Made by a program: the position numbers and the translations under genes. This document shows, one piece after another, positions 6,198 to 38,336 of a DNA stretch of 39,497 nucleotides; positions within the stretch are counted from its first letter, which is position 1; every line of letters begins with the position of its first letter. Source of the DNA: a virus. A model generated the notes under the pieces. The model searched no databases. It had not been told where the DNA came from and saw only the letters and a list, made by a program, of their open reading frames with translations. The DNA lies in IMG/VR virus record IMGVR_UViG_3300031787_000320, positions 1 through 39,497 of that record. The stretch is one strand, 5' to 3'.

Positions 6198-6724
6198 AGT
6201 ATCGGACTTGTTCTATTAAACTGTTGGCATGCTCTCCATGCCTTTTCACAAATACCCATACCTTCCGCACCTGCCCCACGATTTTCGTACATATGGTTAA
6301 CCTGATCGAGAATCGCAAACTTCAAAGCAACGGGAACATGGGTCATGCCTACCTGGTATTCTGCCCTCAAAGTATCTATTTGAGGAAACTTTACAACGGG
6401 GTAATTACCTCCGATAATTCGCTTGTCAGCAAGTAATGTATTAGTATAGTCATCATACAACACAACATCGGAAATCACCGGGCCAAAAGGTAGGTTGAAA
6501 GAACCCCCTTTGTTGGAAAACCATACTTTCACCGTCTTTGTCAGGATGGATATTCCGGCAGCATCTTCGATTGTTTTCCGGGCAGCACTAATCAGCGATG
6601 CCACCTGTGCATCTTCGGAGGTATGGCTAACACGGATATACAACTTTGCTTCGGCAAGTGTTAAAGGTTCGCCATAACTCACCTCCGTTAACTGACTATC
6701 TATGATGTAAGACTGATTACCCAT
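6194..6724 (-). CDS. Head-tail connector protein (gp6-like)
   Basis: 176 residues. The opening EPLTLAEAKLYIRVSHTSED followed by DAQVASLISAARKTIED is the signature of HK97 gp6 / SPP1 gp15-like connectors (L.EAK..LR......D..I..LI..AR..IE). The middle is beta-rich, and the later helix (VALKFAILDQVNHMYENRG) fits the family. It forms the ring below the portal. The start overlaps the end of the glycosyltransferase gene by 25 bases, so the glycosyltransferase is embedded in the head operon. Confidence 0.8.
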   Translation of the reverse strand: MGNQSYIIDSQLTEVSYGEPLTLAEAKLYIRVSHTSEDAQVASLISAARKTIEDAAGISILTKTVKVWFSNKGGSFNLPFGPVISDVVLYDDYTNTLLADKRIIGGNYPVVKFPQIDTLRAEYQVGMTHVPVALKFAILDQVNHMYENRGAGAEGMGICEKAWRACQQFNRTSPIL

Positions 6725-7650
6725 TGTTCAAAGTTTATTAAATTTTGCTCCGGTTCAAGTTCATTCGCCCGTTGCAGCGATTTATGACTGTAAAATTCGT
6801 ATTTATTTCTTACATTATTGATGGCAGCAGTCCAGTCCTCCAATCGGTCAGGTCGGCAGTATATCGCAGCATCGCCACAATTCTCACGAAGGCCGGGCAA
6901 ATCACTCACTATAACGGGAATTCCAGATGCCATAGCTTCCGTTGCCGTCCTTCCCCATGATTCATACTGCGATGGCATTAATAGTATGCCTGTGCGCCTA
7001 TACGCATTGCGAATGTCGGGCTGATTGGCCATGTAGGAAACATTCGGCAACTCTTTGTATATCTGCTGCCCGTAGCCGCCCTGTACGCCTAAAAATCGCT
7101 CCTGTGGCATGGCTTCGGCTATACGGTAGAACATCTCCGCACCTTTATTCTTATTTAAGTTTATTAGTGTTATTTCCTGCCCTTTTTCAACTCTGTAATG
7201 GTCAATGTCAACGGGAGGGGGCAATATAAAGCCCGAATTGTTGTATTTGCAAAACTCACTATTCCATTTACTATTATAAACCACATTTAATTGTGGATTC
7301 GACCTAACAGAAGTGTACATGAATGTATTATGTGCAAACCAAACGGCTGGTTTCTTACTTACTTTGCAGTCATTGACTACATCTTGCGCAAAGTCTAGTT
7401 GTGTGAAAATTATATCGGCCCATTCGTGATGGAAGTACCAATCATGGGTACGGTTGAATACTTGTATTCCTTCGTACTCGTAGTATTCATTGTTCATTGC
7501 GGAGGTCATCACCTTTACTTTGTGACCTCTTGCTAACATCCATTTGTTGATGGCGTGTGCCATCCATTCTGACCCAGATTTTGCCATTGGCAAGTAGCTC
7601 TGAACGTGCCACAAGATGCGCAGTTTTTTTGGGTATGTGTTTTCGTTCAC
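6700..7650 (-). CDS. Glycosyltransferase, GT4-like (GT-B fold)
   Basis: 316 residues. The C-terminal domain carries MPSQYESWGRTATEAMASG followed by IPVIVSDLPGLREN, the E-x7-E type donor-sugar motif of GT4/GT1 enzymes. The N-terminus (LRILWHVQSYLP, GSEWMAHAIN, RGHKVKVMTS) matches the acceptor-side Rossmann domain of GT4. It should move a sugar from a nucleotide-sugar donor onto an acceptor that the sequence does not reveal. It lies between the capsid gene (after a terminator-like hairpin) and the connector gene, an unusual place that suggests a late role such as virion glycosylation. It is the fourth glycosyltransferase-like gene of the window and the only one with a GT-B pattern. Confidence 0.85.
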   Translation of the reverse strand: MNENTYPKKLRILWHVQSYLPMAKSGSEWMAHAINKWMLARGHKVKVMTSAMNNEYYEYEGIQVFNRTHDWYFHHEWADIIFTQLDFAQDVVNDCKVSKKPAVWFAHNTFMYTSVRSNPQLNVVYNSKWNSEFCKYNNSGFILPPPVDIDHYRVEKGQEITLINLNKNKGAEMFYRIAEAMPQERFLGVQGGYGQQIYKELPNVSYMANQPDIRNAYRRTGILLMPSQYESWGRTATEAMASGIPVIVSDLPGLRENCGDAAIYCRPDRLEDWTAAINNVRNKYEFYSHKSLQRANELEPEQNLINFEQWVISLTS

Positions 7651-11780: not shown

Positions 11781-13763
11781 TTACCAAACGGCTACCTGGA
11801 ATTGTGGCTTGTGTAGATGGGTGAAGATGGCATATCTCATAGCATCGCAATTATGGACTAATATCCCGTTAGCAAAATACTCATGCTCATCTTCAACGCT
11901 TAGGTCGTAAACTCTTTCCTGCCAACTTGTAACGCACTCGAAGTTCTTTAGCTTTGCAGTTTGGATGGCAGAACTTTGAATGCTTTGTTTTTGCGATGTA
12001 TTCATTTCCGCAATGCATGCATTTTGATTCAATAGATAATGGTTTCCCGAAGTTGTTTTTAGCTGCATGTTGTTTGTGCCATTCGATACCTTCTGCACTT
12101 TTATGCCATTGCTTTGCTGCTTCAATTCCTTTTGCATAGAACTCTTTGAACTTTTCAGGGTTGTCTTTAATCCTTTGTTTAATATGCTTACTAAGATGTG
12201 TAGAGGATTTGATTTTTTCAAGGTTAGATATTTGATTATTCCATGAATTCCCATCTTTATGATGAATATGATACCCTTTTTCTCTTTTCCCGTTGTAGTG
12301 TTCCCAAACGTACCAATGCATGTGTAGTGGCCCATTTGTGAAATACCTTGCTCCGGGATGTAATGTGAATGGTCTGCCATTAAATGTTTGATATGGCTTA
12401 CCGTTTCCATTAATTCTAATTTCGAAATCTTTGTCCATTCGTTTTGAGTATAAATTAAATGATTTGAAGTACAATGCAAATATACCGAATGCGTATCGAA
12501 TTGCATCAAATACTTTTGCACTTGTTTCACTCCGTTATTATGCACGGCATACACTTTTTTATACCCATTCCTTGTTAATACTAAATCGCCTACTTTTATT
12601 TCATCAATTCTTTTTTGACCATTAATTGTTGTTATTTGTGTTTCGCCTACAAAACATGCATCGTCAAATTCTTTAACAGGTTCATCCACAACATTGTCAT
12701 TCTTGTCCTTCTTCCACTTATACGATTGCAGTTCCCTGATTAGTTCCCTGCTATCTTTGTGAACGTACAATGGATATGATTTCACTTTCAGTATCCCCGG
12801 CCATACTTCCTTATTCGCTTGTTGCGCATTGATACCGCCTCTGTATAGTTCCTCAATGCTTTTCGGCTCTGCCGCATCGCAGTACACGGGTTTGCGGTCA
12901 TGGATGTAATCTTTCACCTCCTTTATCATTTCGGATGGGGTTAACCCTGACTTGTATAGTAATTGTTGCACATAGTTAGCACCTTCGTAATGTACCACCT
13001 TAACAAGTGCCAATGGGTGAACATATCCAAAGTCCAACCCATAGAACACATCACCACCTTCGGGCAGTTGGTCGGTTATTTGCCATTGTGTGTAAATTAT
13101 CTCCTTTGCTGCCCCACGTTCCCCCAAGCCGTACACCTTCCACATAAAGTCATCGGGTAGGTTCTTATACCCCTCAATGATGCCTATCTGCATTGGGGAA
13201 AGGTTCGGTAAATTGTTTAAATAGGTAGAATGTATCCTAGCGTTATTCGGATTGTCGGCTACATCGTACACCCAAGAAACGAAGTCGGCAGGGTTCCAAT
13301 CGAGGAATATCTTGCCCGTTGTCCGCATTGCCAACTGGTCAAATAATGACTTTCTAATCAGGTTCGCTTCATTGATGAATAGTATATCCCTGCCCGGTCC
13401 ACGTGCTTTCCCCTCATCTTCAAGTCCGAATAGTTCAATATAACTGCCATTGCGGAACTTATACACAAAGTCGGTGAAGGAGAATGAGTCATCATCCCAA
13501 ATGCCCCAATCAGTCATAATCTGCCTAAAATCACGATATGCTCCACGTTTGATGTGGGGTAAGGAGTGCGATACGATGCTTATACGTTTGCCAGGCTCAT
13601 CCATTGCTATCAGTACCAATAACTGCACTTCGGAGTATGACTTCGAACTACGGCTTCCTCCCTCATTGCAGATAATGGGTGCCGGGCCTTTATACGCTTT
13701 GAGATTCTCAAAGAATACCGGGGTTGCTTTAATTGGTTTTAATACCACACTCTTTAAATTCAT
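11781..13763 (-). CDS. terL: Terminase large subunit with in-frame intein (660 aa precursor)
   Basis: Packaging motor. ATPase part: Walker A variant GGSRSSKS (residues 35-42), Walker B-like DILFINEA (126-133), as in the PBSX XtmB-like terminases. Nuclease part: GLDFGYVHP (Asp244), VYCDAAEP (Asp296) and the split final motif FDDA...CDAMRYA (Asp367/368 and Asp640). Residues 370-638 are an intein placed inside that last active-site motif. After removal the exteins join as FDDACDAMRYA, giving a mature protein of about 391 residues, a normal size for this family. An HNH endonuclease gene lies in another frame within the intein. The start overlaps the upstream methyltransferase gene by 35 bases. 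Confidence 0.92.
   Translation of the reverse strand: MNLKSVVLKPIKATPVFFENLKAYKGPAPIICNEGGSRSSKSYSEVQLLVLIAMDEPGKRISIVSHSLPHIKRGAYRDFRQIMTDWGIWDDDSFSFTDFVYKFRNGSYIELFGLEDEGKARGPGRDILFINEANLIRKSLFDQLAMRTTGKIFLDWNPADFVSWVYDVADNPNNARIHSTYLNNLPNLSPMQIGIIEGYKNLPDDFMWKVYGLGERGAAKEIIYTQWQITDQLPEGGDVFYGLDFGYVHPLALVKVVHYEGANYVQQLLYKSGLTPSEMIKEVKDYIHDRKPVYCDAAEPKSIEELYRGGINAQQANKEVWPGILKVKSYPLYVHKDSRELIRELQSYKWKKDKNDNVVDEPVKEFDDACFVGETQITTINGQKRIDEIKVGDLVLTRNGYKKVYAVHNNGVKQVQKYLMQFDTHSVYLHCTSNHLIYTQNEWTKISKLELMETVSHIKHLMADHSHYIPEQGISQMGHYTCIGTFGNTTTGKEKKGIIFIIKMGIHGIIKYLTLKKSNPLHILVSILNKGLKTTLKSSKSSMQKELKQQSNGIKVQKVSNGTNNMQLKTTSGNHYLLNQNACIAEMNTSQKQSIQSSAIQTAKLKNFECVTSWQERVYDLSVEDEHEYFANGILVHNCDAMRYAIFTHLHKPQFQVAVW
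11850..12656 (-). other. Intein in TerL (269 codons)
   Basis: Self-splicing element. The N-terminal block A starts with Cys370 (CFVGETQI), followed by IDEIKVGDLVLT and a block B-like YLHCTSNHLIYT (His at the T..H position). The C-terminal blocks F/G are RVYDLSVEDEHEYFANG followed by ILVHN, then Cys639 as the +1 residue. These are the canonical Hint features. Between block B and block F the intein frame is open for about 165 codons, but the sequence is low-complexity, Lys/Ser/Thr/Gln-rich and resembles no endonuclease. The real HNH protein is encoded there in another frame. Boundaries follow from the conserved terminal residues. Confidence 0.9.
11893..12438 (-). CDS. HNH homing endonuclease nested out of frame inside the intein
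   Basis: 181 residues from an ATG at 12438; the upstream part of the open frame has only a TTG start. HNH_3-type core: HMHWYVWEHYNGKREKGYHI then HHKDGNSWNNQISNLEKI (His41, His59/60, Asn67/68, Asn72). The C-terminal Zn-ribbon-like motif has CMHCG (Cys140, Cys143) and FCHPNC (Cys157, Cys161). HNH proteins of this kind nick or cut DNA at homing sites. The reading frame is -1 relative to terL, and both frames are open throughout. It covers intein codons 442-624, between splicing blocks B and G. It must be translated from its own start, since the intein frame runs through without it. Confidence 0.88.
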   Translation of the reverse strand: MDKDFEIRINGNGKPYQTFNGRPFTLHPGARYFTNGPLHMHWYVWEHYNGKREKGYHIHHKDGNSWNNQISNLEKIKSSTHLSKHIKQRIKDNPEKFKEFYAKGIEAAKQWHKSAEGIEWHKQHAAKNNFGKPLSIESKCMHCGNEYIAKTKHSKFCHPNCKAKELRVRYKLAGKSLRPKR

Positions 13764-14486: not shown

Positions 14487-15209
14487 TTAATCTTTAACCC
14501 CCCAATTTATGAAATAAGGTTCAACAGGCAAATAGTGCCTGTATGCTAATCCACCATACGGCTGCACCGGAATACCTGTCATGTTCATCAACCCTGATAA
14601 TAACGCCTGGTCATGTCTGCTGCTAACGTAATGCGGATTCTTGCTTTCATTGTGGTGGAAGCAGTTCTCCTTTGCCCCTTGTATCCACTTTTCAAAGATA
14701 GGCATCGTTGCAGGATGGTCGAAGTCGAACATGATGCAACAAGCCATTATCTGATACATTTGTTTGATTTCTGTGTAGTCCTTTAACCCTAACCATGCGA
14801 TTTGATGGTCTGGCATGTATTTGTGAAGTTCGTGTCCTTCATTATCCCATGCAACTATACCATGTTCGGCTGCTAACGCCCAGAGCGGATCGGGGTTTTG
14901 ATGTACCCGGATTGTGGAATCGCACCAAATTATCTTCCGGTATCCTTTCTCCAACGCTTCGGCTACCATAAACGGCTTGAACTGGTATGGCATATTCTGA
15001 TGATTCCATGACTTGCCCCATCGCTTTGATTCCGGCCAATCGCCAAGGATTATTTTGCGTTCCAGGTATTCATCAACATATCCATCAACACTACGCAGGT
15101 GAGTGTCATAGTCGGGTGCCTTTCGGTCAATACTGCGTATTAATCCTAACTGCGCCTCATTGTAGTTTTCCCTACCGGTGGAGGAAAGGGATACGATTAC
15201 CTTGCCCAT
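14487..15209 (-). CDS. Glycosyltransferase-like protein (GT-A type)
   Basis: 240 residues. KIIWCDSTIRV contains an Asp-x-x-x motif after a hydrophobic strand, in the place where GT-A enzymes carry the DxD metal-binding motif. QFKPFMVAEALEKGYRKIIW resembles the 'KP..i.eaL...y..v.w.D' helix-strand of GT-A nucleotide-sugar transferases. Later FDFDHPATMPIFEKW and SSRHDQALLSGLM (HDQ...l) fit the acceptor side, as in DUF1647-like or capsule-type transferases. The exact family is uncertain. Overlaps the FkbM-like gene by 13 bases. Confidence 0.65.
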   Translation of the reverse strand: MGKVIVSLSSTGRENYNEAQLGLIRSIDRKAPDYDTHLRSVDGYVDEYLERKIILGDWPESKRWGKSWNHQNMPYQFKPFMVAEALEKGYRKIIWCDSTIRVHQNPDPLWALAAEHGIVAWDNEGHELHKYMPDHQIAWLGLKDYTEIKQMYQIMACCIMFDFDHPATMPIFEKWIQGAKENCFHHNESKNPHYVSSRHDQALLSGLMNMTGIPVQPYGGLAYRHYLPVEPYFINWGVKD

Positions 15210-15796
15210 ATTACGTTTTCAAGATTGTTAAGTAATTTTTTGGTCAGACCTGCCTTATTGCAGTATTCTTTAATCAACTGAAATAAGTCAGGGTTAGAGT
15301 TATGCTCAATGCAAACCATGTCAGTATATTTGAGATCAATCTGTTCCAATATCTCATAGTCCACCCCTTCTGCATCAATACTTATGAAATCAAAGAACTT
15401 AAACGGGGAATGTTTGAGTAGTGTTTTGTAAGTCCATACCTCTGTCATACGTTCTTTGAACTCCACCCCCGGCCAACGCTTTAACTCTGTTTTCTTAATA
15501 GTGGATAGCAGCGACACATCCCCAGCGTTGAGGTGGTTGCCCATTTCGTGAAACGTACAATGCCCATCTTCCGTACCAATAGCAACATTGAACTTTTTCA
15601 ACCCGTAACGTACTTTGATACGGTTAAATGCTTCTTCGCTTGGTTCTACAAGTACACCGCTCCACCCCTGTAATTGCAGGGCATAGGTATTGGACAAAGT
15701 TTGTCCATCGTTTGCACCTATGTCAAGAAAGAACCCTTTGCGGTTACCGAAGTATTGCAGGATGATGTCCTGTTCGTTATTTTGGGAGTATCTCAT
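15197..15796 (-). CDS. FkbM-family methyltransferase
   Basis: 199 residues. FFLDIGANDGQTLSNT is the FkbM motif I (fDvGAn.G..s..t), and GVLVEPSEEAF is the 'EP....' strand. FISIDAEGVDYEILE matches the highly conserved 'KID.EG.E..vl' motif, with Ser in place of Lys. CIEHNSN is the later E-rich strand. FkbM enzymes O-methylate sugars or other small hydroxyls, so it may act on the glycans made by the neighbouring transferases. ATGA overlap with the gene upstream. Confidence 0.88.
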   Translation of the reverse strand: MRYSQNNEQDIILQYFGNRKGFFLDIGANDGQTLSNTYALQLQGWSGVLVEPSEEAFNRIKVRYGLKKFNVAIGTEDGHCTFHEMGNHLNAGDVSLLSTIKKTELKRWPGVEFKERMTEVWTYKTLLKHSPFKFFDFISIDAEGVDYEILEQIDLKYTDMVCIEHNSNPDLFQLIKEYCNKAGLTKKLLNNLENVIWAR

Positions 15797-16134
15797 TTGC
15801 CGAAGGTTTTGGTGTAGTATTCTTCACAACGTATTGCGTTGGTTGGTACATCTTGCCCTCCATCCCAATACGCATTCTCTATCTGCTCCCTTTCCATTTG
15901 TTTGGCTTGTTCAAGTATTTTAATTGCAGAATCTTGAACAGCCCCATCAACTTTTATATTTAACTTTCTTATTTCTTGTTCCAACCATTCTACTGCTGTC
16001 TGTTGTGCCATACTTGGTAGTTCGATTGGGGTTAGCTGTTCTAAAACTTCATCAAAAGTTAAATTAGGTTGACATCTTGCTATGTCCATAGCAAATTTTA
16101 CTTCAAATTCTGTGTATAGTTTCTGTTGTGCCAT
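15793..16134 (-). CDS. Small two-module protein of Bacteroidota phages (113 aa)
   Basis: Start chosen at the ATG at 16134 (MAQQKLYTEFEV), four bases after the upstream gene. It contains two modules that occur separately elsewhere here: KLYTEFEVKFAMDIAR...LTPIELPS, shared with 16891-17124, and MAQQTAVEWLEQE...EQAKQMEREQ, shared with 25001-25318. Such small helical proteins are frequent in Bacteroidota phages and have no known function. Ends in an ATGA overlap with the FkbM gene. Confidence 0.7.
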   Translation of the reverse strand: MAQQKLYTEFEVKFAMDIARCQPNLTFDEVLEQLTPIELPSMAQQTAVEWLEQEIRKLNIKVDGAVQDSAIKILEQAKQMEREQIENAYWDGGQDVPTNAIRCEEYYTKTFGK

Positions 16135-16138
16135 AGGT

Positions 16139-16681
16139 TTATTTGTTAGTCCTAAATTGATAATGATAAAGTTCCTTGTCAATCTTCACCTCCGTATTGA
16201 GCAGTCCCGAAGTATGTATCGCAGTTGCCCAAAGATAATCTTCCCCCACCGTAATATCCATGAACTTGAATTGAATCGCAATATCCCTACGTATTGGCAC
16301 AATGTGATTCGGGTAGCGGTAATACGCCCCGTTCTTGGCTTCATAGCCGTAATGCTTCGAAATGTACCACTTCCGTTCATCCTTGCCGTTGGTGGTCATA
16401 GTGCCGTTGAATACGATTACATCGGGGTCACTTTCTGCTGCTTTGAGTATATCGCTCACATAGGTATCAGCAATAGCATCATCATCATCCACGAACACAA
16501 CGTACTTTCCGGTACTGCGTTGCAGCAGTATGTTACGTTTGCGGCCCGTTGTCATTTGCCTATCATCCGATTCAACCAATATCTCTACATCATCCCTTCT
16601 TTGCGGTGCAAGTGATTGCAGCAGTTGTGAAAGGTAACCTTCACGGCCACGGATGGTGCAAATTAGGATGGAGAGGGTCAT
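16139..16681 (-). CDS. Glycosyltransferase family 2
   Basis: Start placed at the ATG at 16681 (MTLSILICTIRGREGYLSQL), which overlaps the upstream stop as ATGA; an upstream ATG at 16714 would add 11 unlikely residues. 180 residues. The N-terminal strand SILICTIRGRE, then VEILVESDDRQMTTGRKRN and YVVFVDDDDAIADTYV, are GT2 hallmarks. The DDDD motif follows a hydrophobic strand, and the GRKRN segment binds nucleotide-sugar. EDYLWATAIH is the ED catalytic-base motif. It is shorter than typical GT2 enzymes but all key motifs are present. Confidence 0.88.
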   Translation of the reverse strand: MTLSILICTIRGREGYLSQLLQSLAPQRRDDVEILVESDDRQMTTGRKRNILLQRSTGKYVVFVDDDDAIADTYVSDILKAAESDPDVIVFNGTMTTNGKDERKWYISKHYGYEAKNGAYYRYPNHIVPIRRDIAIQFKFMDITVGEDYLWATAIHTSGLLNTEVKIDKELYHYQFRTNK

Positions 16682-16875
16682 AGGGCTTCGATTTCGGCTA
16701 TTACTTGTTCCCAATAATTACTATCATCCCATTCACTTGAATACGATATTATCTCATCAACTGCGATTAATGCGCATTGTTTGGCATATTGACGTTGTTT
16801 GATAACTGACAAAGTACTGAAATCAAATTTGCTATACTTATCTACCAACTCTATTGCTTTGTCTTTCGGTGTCAT
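16678..16875 (-). CDS. Small helical protein (65 aa)
   Basis: Starts MTPKDKAIELVDKYSKF and includes AKQCALIAVDEIISYSSEWD followed by YWEQVIAEIEAL. This pattern (KA.eL..ky.......aK.cALi.vdEii) recurs in many Bacteroidota phage small proteins with unknown function. ATGA overlap with the GT2 gene downstream suggests cotranslation. Confidence 0.65.
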   Translation of the reverse strand: MTPKDKAIELVDKYSKFDFSTLSVIKQRQYAKQCALIAVDEIISYSSEWDDSNYWEQVIAEIEAL

Positions 16876-16890
16876 GCGTTATGTTTTGGA

Positions 16891-17124
16891 TTAAGGAAAT
16901 ATTTTATCTTTTACCCATTTGGCACCATCTCTAAACCCTTTTTCTTGTTCTTCTGATAATGACCTATCTTCTATCTCATCATCACTTGGTAGTTCTATTG
17001 GGGTTAAAATTTCTATTATTCCATTAGGATTAGAATATATAAAATAGCCACCCCCGGGATTTGAATCGCATTCTTGTGCTAATTCAATAGCAATTCTTAC
17101 TTCTTTTTCTGTGTATAGTTTCAT
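16891..17124 (-). CDS. Small hypothetical protein (77 aa)
   Basis: Starts MKLYTEKEVRIAIELAQECD and contains IIEILTPIELPSDDE. It shares the KLYTE.EV...i.iA...LTPIELPS module with the protein at 15793-16134, suggesting duplication within this gene cluster. The C-terminus EEQEKGFRDGAKWVKDKIFP looks like a short amphipathic helix. Unknown function. Confidence 0.65.
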   Translation of the reverse strand: MKLYTEKEVRIAIELAQECDSNPGGGYFIYSNPNGIIEILTPIELPSDDEIEDRSLSEEQEKGFRDGAKWVKDKIFP

Positions 17125-17166
17125 GTCTTATATCATTTCGTTGACCTCACCAATATGGTTTTATTG

Positions 17167-17928
17167 TTATACGTTATGTTTTGGGAATCCTTGCTTACTT
17201 CTACGGATATACGTTATTTCATCAGCCCGGAATGTTGATTGCGTTTTCTCTAACAGGGCATCGGGTTTCTCGCCCGTCCATGCAGGGTGAACATGGTCGA
17301 ATATTTGGCGGTTGATGTACTTATGGCACCCACGTAATTTAGCCACGTCCATAGCTTCATTGTCGCACCACAGGTTTTCATATTGCGGATGGTAGATGTA
17401 CCCATCACGGTCATAGTAGTTCCTGCCCATTATGCTCATCGTAGGCAGCAGGTGATTCACCCTTCCATCAGGGAAGTGAATAAACTGGTCAAGGTTGCCA
17501 CCAAATGCGTTAATGATAGCGATGTCATAGCCAGGGGCAATGAAGCGCATATCATCCGACATATTCACAACAATATCACCTTTCCAATCTACCATACCCC
17601 GGTTGATTGCGTGAATCTTGTTTTTACTTGTTCCAGGTACAACGTAGATACGTTTGTCCTGCAAAACATCCATAAGTTGGGGTGAATCTAGTGTAGCCCG
17701 ATCATCATCGTCAATGACTAGACCAATAGTCCAGTCCGATTTGTGGGAATATGCTTTGATGGTGGCTATTGCAGCAGCCATCTTATGCGGCCGGCTGCGT
17801 GTGGCAAAGTTGTAATGAATTTGCAAGGGGTTGGCTTTGTGTTCACAAAAGTAACAAAAAGATTTTGTGAAATCCATCTTTAACCTGCAACATAGTTTTT
17901 CACATACTGTGCATTGCTTTTCATTCAT
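17167..17928 (-). CDS. Glycosyltransferase (GT-A/GT2-like) with N-terminal Cys-rich motif
   Basis: 253 residues. After an N-terminal CTVCEKLCC...CYFCEH segment that could bind zinc, the sequence reads HYNFATRSRPHKMAAAIATI, WTIGLVIDDDDRATL and DIVVNMSDDMRFIAPGYD. These are the first strand, an acidic cluster and the 'DD' metal site (SDD at the end of a hydrophobic strand), typical of GT-A folds. GRNYYDRDGYIYHP and WCDNEAMDVAKL may form the acceptor region. Directly downstream of terS. Confidence 0.75.
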   Translation of the reverse strand: MNEKQCTVCEKLCCRLKMDFTKSFCYFCEHKANPLQIHYNFATRSRPHKMAAAIATIKAYSHKSDWTIGLVIDDDDRATLDSPQLMDVLQDKRIYVVPGTSKNKIHAINRGMVDWKGDIVVNMSDDMRFIAPGYDIAIINAFGGNLDQFIHFPDGRVNHLLPTMSIMGRNYYDRDGYIYHPQYENLWCDNEAMDVAKLRGCHKYINRQIFDHVHPAWTGEKPDALLEKTQSTFRADEITYIRRSKQGFPKHNV

Positions 17929-31964: not shown

Positions 31965-32507
31965 TCAATTCTTTGACCTAAAATGTGCTAGGGTTGCAGC
32001 CAACTTCCGGGCTATGCCGTTCTTATTCGCCTGGTAAAGTTTCATATCCGTTGGGTTGCTAATGAAACAAACCTCTATCAGCACATTTTCTGCGTTAGGT
32101 CGCATCCAGCCAAGTGACTTACGGGCCGTTTCCGTTTCTGGTTTTACCCCTCTATCCCGAAAGCCAAACACGGTAAAGCAGTGCAGTAGTTCTTTTGCTA
32201 GATTGAGTTCAAATGCCGATGCCTTTTCAGGCACAATAACCTCACTTCCCTTTGCTTCGGGATTGGCTGCTGCGTTCCAATGTATGTCAAGTAGGATGTC
32301 ACCTGTGGTGAACTTACCCCGTAACCATAACAATGTTTGCTTCAATGCGTTCTTATCATCATCGGTCAGGGCAGTAATGCCGAGTGCCTTAAGTTCTGCT
32401 ACAACAAGGTTACGCAGTTCTATTGCTAAATCACGTTCAATATAACCATTCCCGGATGCTCCGGGGTCTATACCTCCGTGTCCTGCTGAAATGATTATTT
32501 TTCTCAT
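31965..32507 (-). CDS. N-acetylmuramoyl-L-alanine amidase (Amidase_3), endolysin
   Basis: 180 residues, an amidase_3 domain with nothing else. Zinc ligands and catalytic residues: His10 (SAGHGGIDPGA), Glu24 (GYIERDLA), His76 (DIHWNAA) and Glu145 (VLIEVCFISN). It cleaves the amide bond between MurNAc and the peptide stem. No signal peptide is seen, so release to the periplasm needs a holin. It follows the spanin candidate with an ATGA overlap, and holin-like genes lie just upstream. Confidence 0.92.
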   Translation of the reverse strand: MRKIIISAGHGGIDPGASGNGYIERDLAIELRNLVVAELKALGITALTDDDKNALKQTLLWLRGKFTTGDILLDIHWNAAANPEAKGSEVIVPEKASAFELNLAKELLHCFTVFGFRDRGVKPETETARKSLGWMRPNAENVLIEVCFISNPTDMKLYQANKNGIARKLAATLAHFRSKN

Positions 32508-32995
32508 CGTAATATATTGTATTTTTTACCAGTCATGTAGAACAGAACTATGATAACAATACCTAGTATTAGATACCAGGGTGTTTTTTTCGTTTCTTTC
32601 GTTTGCGTGTTCGTTGCAGTTGTTGCCGATTGTGCAAAATTCGCCTTTCCTATTGTGCTATCTTTAGAGATGCCATTCTCCCTCATCTCCTTTCGCATCT
32701 TAATATTTTCATAAATGATGCGTTGGCGAATTTGAGGAACCTCCGTGTAAGTGGTATCAAATATCTCAATTGTCTTTGTAACAAATTCCTGTAATTCGGT
32801 TGTCAGTTTGGTAGTGTCCACTACTTTGACGTGTACGGTATCCCGTACAAATACCGTGATTGTTTCGGTCTTGCTGCTGCTTTTGGCTTTCTTACTACCG
32901 TTGCAGGAAACTAATGTTAGTATTACTGCAATGGTTACAATGGTAAGAAGTGCTATCCAAAATTTATTCTCCGGCTTTGGGTTCGATAATGTCAT
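32504..32995 (-). CDS. Putative unimolecular spanin (lipoprotein with C-terminal transmembrane segment)
   Basis: Start placed at ATG 32995; another at 33010 is possible. The N-terminus (PENKFWIALLTIVTIAVILT followed by LVSC) reads as a lipoprotein signal with Cys at residue 31. The tail ends WYLILGIVIIVLFYMTGKKY, a transmembrane helix. The middle (about 100 residues) is polar and partly coiled (TELQEFVTKTIEIFDT). Outer-membrane lipid anchor plus inner-membrane helix is the u-spanin plan, known in phage T1 gp11. Position between holin-like genes and the amidase fits. No family match can be confirmed here. Confidence 0.6.
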   Translation of the reverse strand: MTLSNPKPENKFWIALLTIVTIAVILTLVSCNGSKKAKSSSKTETITVFVRDTVHVKVVDTTKLTTELQEFVTKTIEIFDTTYTEVPQIRQRIIYENIKMRKEMRENGISKDSTIGKANFAQSATTATNTQTKETKKTPWYLILGIVIIVLFYMTGKKYNILR

Positions 32996-33206
32996 ATTCT
33001 TCGTTTGCAAGTAATGCTGAAAATACTTCCAGCAGGGTTGGTAAAAATGCGATGATGGTTGCCACGTTAGCCATTTGCTTATCGGTCAGGTGGAATATCT
33101 GAAACACGGCCATAACGGTGGGGCCTGACAATAGGCCTATAATTCGCTTTGATTTTCTATACCATTTAGGGGAACGGTGGTTGACGTTAGTTAGACTTTT
33201 TGCCAT
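32964..33206 (-). CDS. Holin-like small membrane protein (80 aa)
   Basis: Basic N-terminus (MAKSLTNVNHRSPKWYRKSK), then two hydrophobic segments (IIGLLSGPTVMAVFQIF and VATIIAFLPTLLEVFSALLA) and an acidic tail. Size, topology and location upstream of spanin and amidase fit a holin. The ends overlap both neighbours. Confidence 0.7.
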   Translation of the reverse strand: MAKSLTNVNHRSPKWYRKSKRIIGLLSGPTVMAVFQIFHLTDKQMANVATIIAFLPTLLEVFSALLANEEYDIIEPKAGE

Positions 33207-33363
33207 TGCTTTTTAGCTTTTGAATGTTCACTATTATAGTTACGATTGCTGAAAGTATAGTGCAGTACGTTGCGAACTGCGATGCCGTGATATTGGCAAA
33301 CATCCATAAAAAAACGGTGATTAATAGACCCCTTACGGATGTTCCGTCAACGTGCTGCTCCAT
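33187..33363 (-). CDS. Small membrane protein, possible second holin or antiholin (58 aa)
   Basis: ATG 33363 to TAA 33187, overlapping the 80-residue gene by 20 bases. Hydrophobic segments RGLLITVFLWMFANI and FATYCTILSAIVTIIVNI, then a Lys-rich end (KLKSNGKKSN). Small size and place in the lysis cassette suggest a holin-like or regulatory membrane protein. Confidence 0.6.
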   Translation of the reverse strand: MEQHVDGTSVRGLLITVFLWMFANITASQFATYCTILSAIVTIIVNIQKLKSNGKKSN

Positions 33364-33366
33364 TGT

Positions 33367-33705
33367 TTAACGCTTTATTAGTTTGTAGAAGTTGAGAATG
33401 AAATCGTCTATGAGTGTGTTATCTGTTCCCCATTGCTGCACTGTGGCAGCAGGAATAGGTACGTTACCATCTGTTATTTTCTTTCCCTTCTTATCGTATG
33501 CCACAACATAGGCGGTGCAGCCCTGTGCGGTATCTCTGCCAAGTCCGAATACTACCCACGTTATCTGCGTGATAGTATCTTTTGTTAGCTTGTTGAACTC
33601 AACTGCAATAACCTGTATGGCAGCCGGGATGGTGTCTGTTTGTACTTCCACCTGTACGGGTGCGGTGGTTGTGATTGCGATTGCGGTGAGTAGTGCGGTT
33701 ATCAT
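33367..33705 (-). CDS. Small secreted hypothetical protein (112 aa)
   Basis: The N-terminus MITALLTAIAITTTAPVQVE resembles a short Sec signal. The rest is soluble beta/alpha (ITQITWVVFGLGRDTAQGCT, AYVVAYDKKGKKITDGNVPI). Overlaps the neighbouring membrane-protein gene by four bases (ATGA). Role unknown; it may act in the envelope during lysis or entry exclusion. Confidence 0.55.
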   Translation of the reverse strand: MITALLTAIAITTTAPVQVEVQTDTIPAAIQVIAVEFNKLTKDTITQITWVVFGLGRDTAQGCTAYVVAYDKKGKKITDGNVPIPAATVQQWGTDNTLIDDFILNFYKLIKR

Positions 33706-34001
33706 TTGCGTAAAAGTTTATAAGTTAATTCAAAGCCAAAAGACCATGCTAACATTAGCAAAATTACGTTACCTCCGCCATAAAAAATAGCGGTAGCGAT
33801 TGAGATGAGCATCCCGTATTTTACAAGGTGCCATCCGTCAAGTCGGACAATACCAAGCGTATTCGGTACAACCTTCCACGAATAGTTCGGATTCCACCAA
33901 TCCCGATTGAGGTGGCTGAAAATGGATTTGTCAAAGTGCCACATTAACACATCCATCCATCCGTTGAAAGCACCTGCGAGTATTATGAATATGTATGACA
34001 T
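33702..34001 (-). CDS. Small membrane protein (99 aa)
   Basis: Hydrophobic segments at SYIFIILAGAFNGWMDVL and YGMLISIATAIFYGGGNVIL, with aromatic-rich loops (RDWWNPNYSW). Proteins of this kind ('gafnG.mDtl..h...f......W.n...Sw') occur near lysis genes of Bacteroidota phages, function unknown. One-base overlap with the fibre gene. Confidence 0.65.
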   Translation of the reverse strand: MSYIFIILAGAFNGWMDVLMWHFDKSIFSHLNRDWWNPNYSWKVVPNTLGIVRLDGWHLVKYGMLISIATAIFYGGGNVILLMLAWSFGFELTYKLLRK

Positions 34002-35275
34002 TAGTTAGATATTATTTTCCAGTTAGTGCCATCGCACATGATAGTAATTCGTGACCATTGAGTAGATAGCGTTTGGGTTGTTGCCCCATCAATGGTTTCA
34101 GCACCGTTTCCATCTACCGTAATTGTACCTGTGCCAGAGTTCTTTATTATTAGTATTCTCCCTGCGTTGCCCGATGCTGCAAATAGTGTTATGGTAAATG
34201 TACCCGTTGTACAGTCAATCAGGTAATCGCTTGTTGTTGCGTTGTATGCCGTTGTACGGGCAAGATATGCCTGTTTCATGCCTGTCATGGATGCAGAGCC
34301 TACAACATTTAACTTATCTACTCCGTTGTTAGTGTTTGAATTTACATTTAACCAGCCATCTCCGATTACAGAAGCATTGTCATAAAAGGTACTACCTCCC
34401 TTACCTGCGTTTGCGTTAAATAGAAAGCACAATGTAAATGTGGGTGAGTTATTTCTATGGTAAAATTCAAAGTTACCCGTTGCGTTGTTTCCCAATATTC
34501 TCCCTGCCCATCCGCTTGAAGAACTATTGGCAAGCATAGTAAGGTTAGTATTAGCCGTACCCGACCCCATGTCAAGGTTATTAGTTATCTGTGCGCTATT
34601 AGTAACCGATAAATTCTGTGCCGTTGCCCTTGCCGATACATTCATACCCCCACTCACCTGCAATTTATCTACTCCGTTGTCGGTGGTTGTGCCGATCAGT
34701 GCGTTACCCCCGGAAGTGATACGCATACGTTCCAATGAGTTTGTCCACAACCCCATACTACCTGTTGTTCGTGCATCCCCTGAAATAAATGTCGCACTAT
34801 TCACATTGGTATTTTCTTCAAAAGTGAAGTAAGAAACATTCTCGTCAGTATTTTTGCTTCTTATTTCTGTTGTTACTCTTGCTATACCATTAACATCTAA
34901 TTTATATCCCGGAGTTGTACTACTTATTCCGACATTGCCTCCTGGAGTTATAGTCATAGCTACCGAAGATGCAGAGTCAACTATTGATGAATTTCCTAAT
35001 GTTGTCGCTCCTGTGAACTTTGATACTCTGTTAGTTGTACCACTAACCGAACCACCCCCAACTTTTACCCACGTTCTTTTATACTTCACATAAAGCGAAC
35101 TATCAGCCGGCCTAATCAATATCTGTGAACTATCAGCAAGTACCCCAGCAGCCGTGTCCTTTGTAGGAATACCCAAGCCGTTAACATAACGAACCTTGCT
35201 ACCAGTCTGCTGCCATTGGGCGGTAGCGGTAAGGGAACATAAAGTGAGGGCAATAATTAAGAATCTTTGTAACAT
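34001..35275 (-). CDS. Tail fibre-like protein with N-terminal signal peptide (424 aa)
   Basis: The N-terminus MLQRFLIIALTLCSLTATAQ is a convincing Sec signal with cleavage after TAQ. Fibre repeats follow: GNVGISSTTPGYKLDVNG and two copies of a 'TDNGVDKLqVsG' type (one NNGVDKLNVVG), typical of trimeric tail-fibre shafts of Bacteroidota phages. The C-terminal domain (ILIIKNSGTGTITVDGNGAE) fits a receptor-binding tip. It is downstream of the tube-like protein. Signal peptides are rare on virion proteins; export and later assembly or a surface role are both possible. Confidence 0.75.
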   Translation of the reverse strand: MLQRFLIIALTLCSLTATAQWQQTGSKVRYVNGLGIPTKDTAAGVLADSSQILIRPADSSLYVKYKRTWVKVGGGSVSGTTNRVSKFTGATTLGNSSIVDSASSVAMTITPGGNVGISSTTPGYKLDVNGIARVTTEIRSKNTDENVSYFTFEENTNVNSATFISGDARTTGSMGLWTNSLERMRITSGGNALIGTTTDNGVDKLQVSGGMNVSARATAQNLSVTNSAQITNNLDMGSGTANTNLTMLANSSSSGWAGRILGNNATGNFEFYHRNNSPTFTLCFLFNANAGKGGSTFYDNASVIGDGWLNVNSNTNNGVDKLNVVGSASMTGMKQAYLARTTAYNATTSDYLIDCTTGTFTITLFAASGNAGRILIIKNSGTGTITVDGNGAETIDGATTQTLSTQWSRITIMCDGTNWKIISN

Positions 35276-35284
35276 AGTAAGTAT

Positions 35285-35974
35285 TTATTGAACTAAAATA
35301 ATAATTTTTTCTCCTGTGAAAAATGGTACACCGCTATCAACGGCAAGTGTACCCGTGCTAATGGTCCACGTGCAACCAGTACCCGGTGACCCACTATAGA
35401 CAATGGTCTCAAATGCAGTACCTCCACGGCTACCGTATAACATTGTTTTACCTGCCCCACCGGGAATAGCAATGGAAGTTTCACCACCAGCAGCGGTGTA
35501 TTGTAATACCTGTACCGTTGTACCCTGAATAAGTATCCCCACAGGCGTAATGGTGGTTCCTGCTAACGAGTATGGACCTGTACCCTGAAAGGTTGCCTGA
35601 TACGTTCCGATGTCCTTATTTGCGCCCGTAATGCTTATTGACTGCAACCATACCAACCCCGAAACAATGACCAAGCCCCCAGCAGTGCCATTGTCTATAA
35701 CGAACTTAATCAGATGGACTTCACGGTCCAACTGCGACTGCAACATAAAAAGGTATGAATAGTCATCCAATACCACCAACCCATCGGCTGAAATTGACCA
35801 ATTTGCAACGTCTGGACGGCTCTCCTGAAACCATGCGGAGTTGACATTGGTTACCTCCATCGCATTAACACTAACGTTCAATGTGCAAGTTCTTGCGCAA
35901 GCAATCAGCGTGTCGGTATTCGCTATGGAATTGTATTTGTAGATGTTTAGCTTTTGGCCGGTTACTGGTGTCAT
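35285..35974 (-). CDS. Tail tube-like protein with extra C-terminal domain (229 aa)
   Basis: The central part, RPDVANWSISADGLVVLDDY then VWLQSISITGANKDIGTYQA, follows TP901-1/phi13-type tail tube proteins (W.vs.dg....d.......G.....sls..g...d..ty...f.G.G). A second module from about residue 145 (ILIQGTTVQVLQYTAAGGE...) is Gly-rich beta and may be an adhesion domain. It lies after the tail-tip gene and not before the tape measure, so it may be a specialised tube-like tip or fibre-adaptor protein. Confidence 0.65.
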   Translation of the reverse strand: MTPVTGQKLNIYKYNSIANTDTLIACARTCTLNVSVNAMEVTNVNSAWFQESRPDVANWSISADGLVVLDDYSYLFMLQSQLDREVHLIKFVIDNGTAGGLVIVSGLVWLQSISITGANKDIGTYQATFQGTGPYSLAGTTITPVGILIQGTTVQVLQYTAAGGETSIAIPGGAGKTMLYGSRGGTAFETIVYSGSPGTGCTWTISTGTLAVDSGVPFFTGEKIIILVQ

Positions 35975-35975
35975 A

Positions 35976-38336
35976 TTATGTACAATCTATTCCTAGTGTT
36001 AAATTTGATCCGGATATAGTGAATGGAGTGAACATCCTTGCACATATAAACGAACCAGGGGTCAAAGTTACATTGTATAACCAAGTTCCATCGCATTTCT
36101 GATACCCACCTGTCCAGTTAAATGGTGAAGTATTTGTATAGCGTTTGCAACTTGGAGGCAATAATGCAGGGTTAGCCGGGTCTATAAGGGTGTATGGTAA
36201 TATTTCATCCCTAATTTGTAGGGCATTTGCTTCTATGGTGTTACTGATAAAATTAAACTGTGAAGCCCCGAAAATATACCTGTTGTCATTGACGGACAAA
36301 GTAGGCGACGGGTCAGTTATTGCCATTGTATTAAGAAGCCCTATAAATTCAGTATTATTGAATAAGTTATACTGACTAAACTGCATATTTATTTGTGGCT
36401 TTGATATGCAGTTAAAATATTGGTTAAATAATAAGGTACCTAAATTGATATAAAGCGTAGAAGATGCCCCGAATCTGTAAACATCTGTTAAAGGTGTATA
36501 ACTTGTATTAGTGTATATTGATTGAGTTTGATTAACTGCATTGTATGGAAATGGTAAACCAATTAACACATCAACCTCTTTTTTGTAAGGTGTAGGTGTT
36601 ACATCATTATAAATAACTCTACTGGATACAGGGTATGATGATTTTCTTGTTACAGATGCAAGATACAAGGCATTTACCTCGCTTGCTCTAACATTAAAAT
36701 ATATTACAAGTGTTCCACTTGCCGGGGCTGCTAATGTCTTTACATTTGTTTCTTTTATCCTGTCAGAGTTTTGTGGCGCTCCATAATAAGCAGTGCTATC
36801 ATTATAAACCCAATAAGGTTCGTCATTGTTTTTCCTGTAATTCCAAAAGTTTCCACCCCCAACATCAATACGAATAAATATTCTTAACAAGTCATTTACA
36901 TTGGTATAGGTTGCACCATAAACAAAAGTCAAATCTATTTCCTCGTTTTGTTGCACCTTGCCTGGTCTATCACAAATTAAAGTACTTGCTACCGTTCCAG
37001 CTACAATTCTTTGGCAAGTGAAATTATCAACAACAACTCTATCATAAATACCACTAACTCCTAAAGACTTTGTCCAATATATTGGCTCATTAGACGAATC
37101 TAATCTTGACAAATCTCCATTAGCTATTGTATTTTCAGGAAATTTAACATCACCTGTTATTTGAATACTATTATACCCTTTTTTTAATATTTTAACTTGC
37201 CCATTATTTATAAAGTAGAACGGTGTTAATGTATCATTTTGGTATGGCTTTATATCATACTTGATATTCTTTGTGCTTAAAGTATCAGCAACTAACTTCC
37301 AATTGGTAGTAAATACTCTGATACTATCAGATGCCTTTTCATTTACGGAAGTAAACCACCATTGCCCATTTGATTGATATAATTGCACTCCGAAAGACTC
37401 ACAAATCCTTTCTAATACTTCATAGCAACTTGGATATGTTGTTGAGTTTTTAAGAAATATCGCAGGTGCTAAATACAATTGCCTTATAGTGCTTGTACTT
37501 TCGCTCATTGCAACCGTTTGATAATAATTAACTGATGAATTGAATGTATATCCATCAGGAAGATAGATATTCATTAAACAATTGTTAATTATCTTTTGTA
37601 TCGTTTCAAGTCCGTTAACATCTCCTGTTGATGGGATATAGGGAATACTTTTCAACATCCCAAGTCCATCAATGCAGCTAAAAGTTATAAAGTTTCTTCC
37701 GGTAGTAAAAGGCAATGAAACGGTATCAAATAATATAAACCCTTGCCAAATCAAATAAGACGTACCATTGGCATAAAATTTCACATGATACTTTCTGTCA
37801 TCCGTTGTAGTAAAGTCCGGCAATGGCCCTACAAACGAAGTGAAGTCCGCTTGTATCGTAAATGTGGTAGGTAGTATCGGTTGGAATTGGTCATCGCCGG
37901 AAGCATTACAATTCATTACAAAAGGCTCCGGCCCTGTACCTACTGAATACACGCTCCCCGAATAACCTTTCTCCCAAATTTCAGCAGTAAAGGTATGCCC
38001 TGACTTCCCTATGGCGGATAGGGTATATTTTTTACCGTATGCAGGAGGAACAAGCAGAGAAGCAGTTTCGTATGGTGTTGTTGTTGCACCTGCTATAATT
38101 CCAGATGTTACAGACGAGCCGCCTGTAGCTGCTTGTTTATTTGGTGCAAAAATGTATATCTGTGGGGTATATGCAGTTTCGTAATTGTACCCTGTGACAT
38201 AATTAGTTCTTACTTCATTGTAAGCAAATGTTACAATTTCACCTTGACACGTTTGAAATTCAAAATATACAAATCCATCAGATGCAGCAGCTATATCTGT
38301 ACTTGAAACTGTTATTGTTAGTTTATTACACGCCAT
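35976..38336 (-). CDS. Tail tip / hub-like structural protein (786 aa), complete copy
   Basis: Complete 786-residue protein of almost entirely beta structure. N-terminus MACNKLTITVSSTDIAAASD; IWQGFILFDTVSLPFTTGRN, FSCIDGLGMLKSIPY and VLERICESFGVQLYQSNGQW form a conserved central region. This architecture is common for large proteins directly after the tape measure in Bacteroidota siphoviruses and is best read as a tail-tip/hub component. No enzymatic motif is seen. The left end of the window carries a diverged copy. Confidence 0.75.
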   Translation of the reverse strand: MACNKLTITVSSTDIAAASDGFVYFEFQTCQGEIVTFAYNEVRTNYVTGYNYETAYTPQIYIFAPNKQAATGGSSVTSGIIAGATTTPYETASLLVPPAYGKKYTLSAIGKSGHTFTAEIWEKGYSGSVYSVGTGPEPFVMNCNASGDDQFQPILPTTFTIQADFTSFVGPLPDFTTTDDRKYHVKFYANGTSYLIWQGFILFDTVSLPFTTGRNFITFSCIDGLGMLKSIPYIPSTGDVNGLETIQKIINNCLMNIYLPDGYTFNSSVNYYQTVAMSESTSTIRQLYLAPAIFLKNSTTYPSCYEVLERICESFGVQLYQSNGQWWFTSVNEKASDSIRVFTTNWKLVADTLSTKNIKYDIKPYQNDTLTPFYFINNGQVKILKKGYNSIQITGDVKFPENTIANGDLSRLDSSNEPIYWTKSLGVSGIYDRVVVDNFTCQRIVAGTVASTLICDRPGKVQQNEEIDLTFVYGATYTNVNDLLRIFIRIDVGGGNFWNYRKNNDEPYWVYNDSTAYYGAPQNSDRIKETNVKTLAAPASGTLVIYFNVRASEVNALYLASVTRKSSYPVSSRVIYNDVTPTPYKKEVDVLIGLPFPYNAVNQTQSIYTNTSYTPLTDVYRFGASSTLYINLGTLLFNQYFNCISKPQINMQFSQYNLFNNTEFIGLLNTMAITDPSPTLSVNDNRYIFGASQFNFISNTIEANALQIRDEILPYTLIDPANPALLPPSCKRYTNTSPFNWTGGYQKCDGTWLYNVTLTPGSFICARMFTPFTISGSNLTLGIDCT

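Follow-up and report, generated by a model that had tools for sequence, protein, structure and literature searches.

A conserved Sec signal peptide on the tail fibre of a Bacteroidota phage and its implications for virion assembly

Introduction

How does a tail fibre that starts with an export signal become part of a virion? In the textbook view, tailed phages are assembled in the cytoplasm of their host, and classical tail fibres and tailspikes are likewise built there and carry no Sec signal. The question is raised by the window analyzed here (the whole stretch of DNA studied, a 39.5-kb viral contig), which represents a siphovirus-type phage with a Bacteroidota host. In an earlier sequence-only reading, one of its ORFs (34001-35275, minus strand) was described as a fibre-like protein with a Sec signal. 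Since virion proteins are normally assembled in the cytoplasm, that reading called for considering either export before assembly or a function outside the virion, e.g. as a decoy or superinfection factor at the host surface.

The fibre gene and its product

The ORF starts with ATG, encodes 424 aa (beginning with MLQRFLIIALTLCSLTATAQWQQ) and has its last base in common with the next gene. It is preceded by the genes of a 786-aa tail protein (35976..38336, minus strand), which in Cellulophaga and Salinibacter phages has homologues among the virion proteins, and of a 229-aa tail-tube-like protein (35285..35974, minus strand; PHROG 1407, Pfam Phage_tail_2), both devoid of a signal. Downstream follows a lysis cassette (31965..34001, minus strand) with small membrane-type genes, a spanin-like lipoprotein, and an amidase endolysin. 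Nearly all of the 24 loci compared show this gene order.

Identification of the product as a tail fibre is supported, because the ORF matches PHROG 9942 (tail fibre, E 9.8e-6), is located in the tail module after the tail-tip genes, belongs to a family combining a conserved N-terminal head with exchangeable C-termini, and finds tailspikes, a phage spike, and T4 gp34 as best PDB matches in Foldseek. The latter are supportive only, as they derive from a low-confidence AlphaFold model (pLDDT 53 overall) that is poor except for the C-terminal knob (residues ~341-424); the model also places a helix at residues 3-12. In one relative (L062), the C-terminus is swapped for an S74 chaperone, and that of another (L063) is similar. 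Ordinary fibres and tailspikes, of the T4 gp34 type or the S74/endosialidase-chaperone type, share with the window protein the fibre-like fold and modular C-termini, including the S74 chaperone.

Four parts can be distinguished, all on the minus strand: the signal peptide (residues 1-19, MLQRFLIIALTLCSLTATA; 35219..35275) with a predicted cut before Gln20; a near-invariant mature head (residues 20-74, QWQQTGSKVRYVNG..RPADSSLYVKYKRTWVKVGG; 35054..35218), presumed to be the tail-attachment domain; a variable shaft of repeated beta-structured segments (34256..35053); and the C-terminal beta knob (34001..34255), which is exchangeable among relatives.

The export signal and its conservation

The N-terminus (MLQRFLIIALTLCSLTATA|QWQQ) shows all features of a Sec/SPase-I signal of the Q-rule type: a positively charged n-region (R4), a hydrophobic core (FLIIALTLCSL), an AxA-type cleavage site predicted at A17-T18-A19|Q20, and Gln at +1. 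The charged and hydrophobic regions named earlier are present, but the AxA-like stretch, formerly read as TAQ, is ATA, with the Q occupying position +1. Gln directly after the cut is denoted as the Q-rule, an SPase-I trait of Bacteroidota (PMC5837995), and the signal is therefore tuned to a Bacteroidota host. Among the 93 window ORFs of at least 60 aa, a rule-based detector called such a signal in the fibre alone. Matches arose in 33 of 25,550 shuffled N-termini and in 249 of 20,000 shuffles of the fibre's own first 40 residues; together with the universal conservation described below, this rules out a chance signal. A downstream start that removes the signal, named in the sequence-only reading as the result that would speak against it, is not supported either: no further in-frame ATG occurs before residue ~107, and conservation covers the signal as well as the head.

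Each of the 130 head-bearing viral loci fetched encodes a signal ending with [AVT]xA|Q. The signal sequences differ (MLQR.., MRKF.., MRKL.., MKKL..), and several unlike signals sit on one almost invariant head, with the cleavage motif fixed. The pattern used in the first scan lay just after the cut site; a rescan with an alignment omitting the first 27 residues, i.e. with the mature protein alone, gave the same outcome, by which a search bias is ruled out. In the MLQR class, pN/pS amounts to 0.22 for the signal and 0.12 for the head, and the signal is under purifying selection. The restriction to the fibre recurs among relatives, where it is the sole forward-strand ORF of at least 80 aa with a Q-rule signal in 19 long loci. 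The export signal of the fibre is confirmed, and the demand that export be considered was justified.

Selection on the signal also bears on the gene's history. In most cases, proteins matching the neck motif on Bacteroidota chromosomes are secreted and have Q-rule signals, which speaks for the capture of a host gene encoding a secreted adhesin-type protein, with the signal as a leftover. Against this stands the purifying selection on the signal; moreover, the head was not found in the bacterial genome collection. As a description of the present state of the fibre, capture is therefore highly improbable; it may, however, account for its origin.

Signal-bearing virion proteins in cultured Bacteroidota phages

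Homologues of the 786-aa tail gene occur in cultured Bacteroidota phages. In Cellulophaga phage phi10:1, the homologue is followed by two small genes and then by gp91-gp94; in phi39:1, gp25 and gp26 likewise come after it. All six products are virion proteins by MS/MS and possess Q-rule signals, as do phiSM gp08, phi18:3 gp85-gp87, and phi19:1 gp101-gp103, the cases in the latter three phages having been retrieved by queries other than the 786-aa gene. The resulting number of 13 MS/MS-listed virion proteins with Q-rule signals in five Cellulophaga phages is based on virion status as stated in GenBank records, which are silent on signal removal and compatible with co-purification of an exported protein. 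The 13 proteins are of the fibre or pectate-lyase type or unnamed structural proteins. The core virion proteins examined in the five phages (portal, capsid, tape-measure, tube, and tail-tip) showed no Q-rule signal.

Thus, phi10:1 and phi39:1 resemble the window phage in carrying Q-rule signals on fibre or pectate-lyase type proteins behind the 786-aa protein homologue, and their records leave the signals unmentioned. They differ from it in their marine hosts and in the number of signal-bearing fibres: each encodes several, the window phage a single one. No homology was detected between the window head and the N-termini of phi10:1, phi39:1, or phi18:1; transfer from the Cellulophaga phages therefore rests on position and trait. 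The fibre-slot proteins of phi18:1, phi4:1, phi14:2, phi38:1, and crAss001 are without a signal. Two of them, phi18:1 gp61 and phi4:1 gp52, are virion proteins by MS/MS and occupy the fibre slot, as the window protein does, but lack a signal peptide; phi18:1 has the same tail gene order, and phi4:1 gp52 has a pectate-lyase domain in common with phi10:1 gp93. Judged from these sequences, the signal-bearing fibre is a recurrent but not universal trait of Bacteroidota phages. Some phages of these hosts therefore do without export, as shown by the signal-less fibres of phi18:1, phi4:1, phi14:2, and crAss001.

Apart from this, near-identical signal-plus-head modules (MKHTISIVLFFILSLGLNA|QTVEGT and MKKTIYILSILLLTISGVSA|QTVIKI) were observed in L153, L163, L160, L164, and L182; they carry different C-termini and occur in Cellulophaga phages assigned to different families.

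The MS/MS annotation also qualifies the earlier alternative of export or a non-virion role. The call to consider export was right, but the framing was too narrow: signal-bearing fibre-slot proteins are annotated as virion components in cultured Bacteroidota phages, so that a role outside the virion should not be assumed by default and a protein both exported and present in the virion fits best. It is unlikely that the fibre is instead a decoy or superinfection factor, exposed at the surface of infected cells or shed from them to block the phage's own receptor, and not a regular part of the virion. Such a role would fit the export signal and the exchangeable C-termini of a receptor-binding type. 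It would also have a counterpart in the Porphyromonas gingivalis phages (Nixviridae), in which five genes of unknown function carry Bacteroidota Q-rule signals like that of the window phage, but are described as possibly altering the host surface and not as fibres or virion parts (PMC10367356). In addition to the virion annotation in relatives, the near-invariant head, which resembles an attachment domain, argues against a decoy. Unlike that of a Cor/Llp-like lipoprotein of superinfection exclusion, the cleavage site ATA|Q has no lipobox Cys at +1, and neither NCBIfam nor Pfam gives a match to a type IX C-terminal sorting domain, the C-terminus being a phage beta knob. A decoy or superinfection role could coexist with a role in the virion. 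In one such combination, the exported fibre would be used for virions, and excess copies would cover receptors on the dying cell and its debris, sparing the progeny. This would be a natural consequence of fibre export before lysis and draws on the same evidence as the favored reading, yet as an account of the fibre it is given quite a low probability.

Depletion of O-glycosylation sequons

A further indication comes from the sequon D[ST][AILVMT], which is O-glycosylated in Bacteroidota in noncytoplasmic proteins only (PMC12871550). In the signal-bearing fibres of Cellulophaga phages, 25 sequons were observed and 62.8 expected (ratio 0.40, bootstrap interval 0.25-0.57). The fibre bodies of the window family without the head gave nearly the same value, with 13 observed and 33.2 expected (ratio 0.39, interval 0.24-0.59); with the head included, the depletion is weak (ratio 0.77), the head retaining one conserved sequon (KDTAAG). 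Signal-less fibres, in contrast, show no depletion (47 observed, 45.1 expected, ratio 1.04), and the difference between signal-bearing and signal-less Cellulophaga fibres is significant (Mann-Whitney p=4e-4). Counts of distinct contexts agree, with a smaller effect (p about 0.01-0.02), and for the reversed motif the phage fibre sets gave a ratio of ~1. The depletion in the window family covers D[ST] as a whole (15 distinct contexts), which makes it less specific than that of the Cellulophaga phages. The paired pectate-lyase domain, with too few copies for a conclusion, has no sequon in any signal-bearing copy and one in each signal-less copy.

As a check, the motif was counted on host chromosomes: proteins with Q-rule signals contain it more often than expected (96 observed, 53.3 expected, ratio 1.80), whereas other chromosomal ORFs do not (57 observed, 51.3 expected). 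This opposition between host secreted proteins and phage fibres is a further argument against a captured host gene. O-glycosylation as the reason for export was rejected too: it predicts enrichment, and the fibres show depletion. As far as such counts can tell, sequon depletion appears to be an independent sign that signal-bearing fibres leave the cytoplasm.

The depletion also bears on a conventional explanation, in which the fibre is assembled in the cytoplasm with its hydrophobic N-terminus uncut, the helix anchoring the fibre to the tail or acting on membranes at entry, and the likeness to a signal being incidental. It would agree with the classical assembly of tailed phages in the cytoplasm and account for the hydrophobic helix, modelled at residues 3-12. 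An uncut anchor, however, would not require the [AVT]xA|Q motif to be invariant, the Q at +1 agrees with the host rule, and sequons are depleted in signal-bearing and not in signal-less fibres. Cytoplasmic assembly with an uncut anchor is very improbable.

Proposed route of the fibre

On balance, the window protein is probably a receptor-binding tail fibre that uses host Sec/SPase-I, folds outside the cytoplasm after export and cleavage, and then joins virions built in the cytoplasm, although considerable doubt attaches to this reading. The data show the signal, its family-wide conservation, its restriction to the fibre, sequon depletion, and the MS/MS virion annotation of signal-bearing proteins in cultured Bacteroidota phages. 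By analogy, the presence of signal-bearing fibres in the particles of cultured relatives suggests that part of the window virus crosses the host envelope before assembly.

Cleavage, the site of folding, and the timing and manner of attachment are inferred. The fibre would be made with its signal peptide and cut after ATA, exposing Gln20, which could then be converted to pyroglutamate by the host glutaminyl cyclase, following the Bacteroidota Q-rule. It would fold in the periplasm or at the cell surface, presumably as a trimer, and appears to have evolved away from periplasmic O-glycosylation by the host. Finally, the conserved N-terminal head would attach the fibre to the cytoplasm-built tail. 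Attachment at lysis, with the membranes open, would be simplest, because the fibre gene sits between the tail tip and the lysis cassette. To our knowledge, no tailed phage has a proven periplasmic step in fibre assembly.

It seems an evenly balanced matter whether the route extends to a class of Bacteroidota tailed phages that complete their virions outside the cytoplasm, with fibres and enzymatic spikes passing through Sec, undergoing Q-rule processing, evading O-glycosylation by sequon loss, and being added to tails at or after lysis. If true, virion fibres delivered via host secretion would represent a different way of completing a virion, and the annotation of 'secreted' genes in Bacteroidota viruses would change. 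The receptor-binding part would be exposed to cutting and glycosylation by the host, which would account for the motif avoidance. The export reading is directly testable with the cultured Cellulophaga phages. Fibres and Q-rule signals are each already known separately. No description of signal-bearing fibres in virions as a recurrent trait among tailed phages of Bacteroidota was found in the literature searched, which included a minority of the subscription papers, with the original Cellulophaga proteomics paper outside the coverage; the claim to novelty is therefore limited.

Other features of the viral contig

Within the lysis region, the protein encoded beside the amidase (32504-33010, minus strand) has a lipobox-like LVSC at its N-terminal end and a membrane helix at its C-terminal end, a layout also present in the Bacteroidota phage proteins phi18:1 gp65 and 11b gp49. 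It is a candidate single-protein spanin. The 112-aa protein encoded at 33367-33705 (minus strand) has an uncharged hydrophobic N-terminus, with the first ~16 residues variable and the remainder conserved, and is possibly a second exported protein.

The contig ends (1-2467 and 36099-38565) overlap with 95.5% identity in the tail gene, with tape-measure C-termini beyond. The underlying genome is therefore probably circular or terminally redundant, with an assembly of mixed strains that ran beyond its end. An intein (Pfam Intein_splicing above cut-off) interrupts the terminase large subunit (11781-13763, minus strand), and glycosyltransferase-like and methyltransferase-like genes lie around the head-gene module (6700-7650 and 14487-17928, minus strand).
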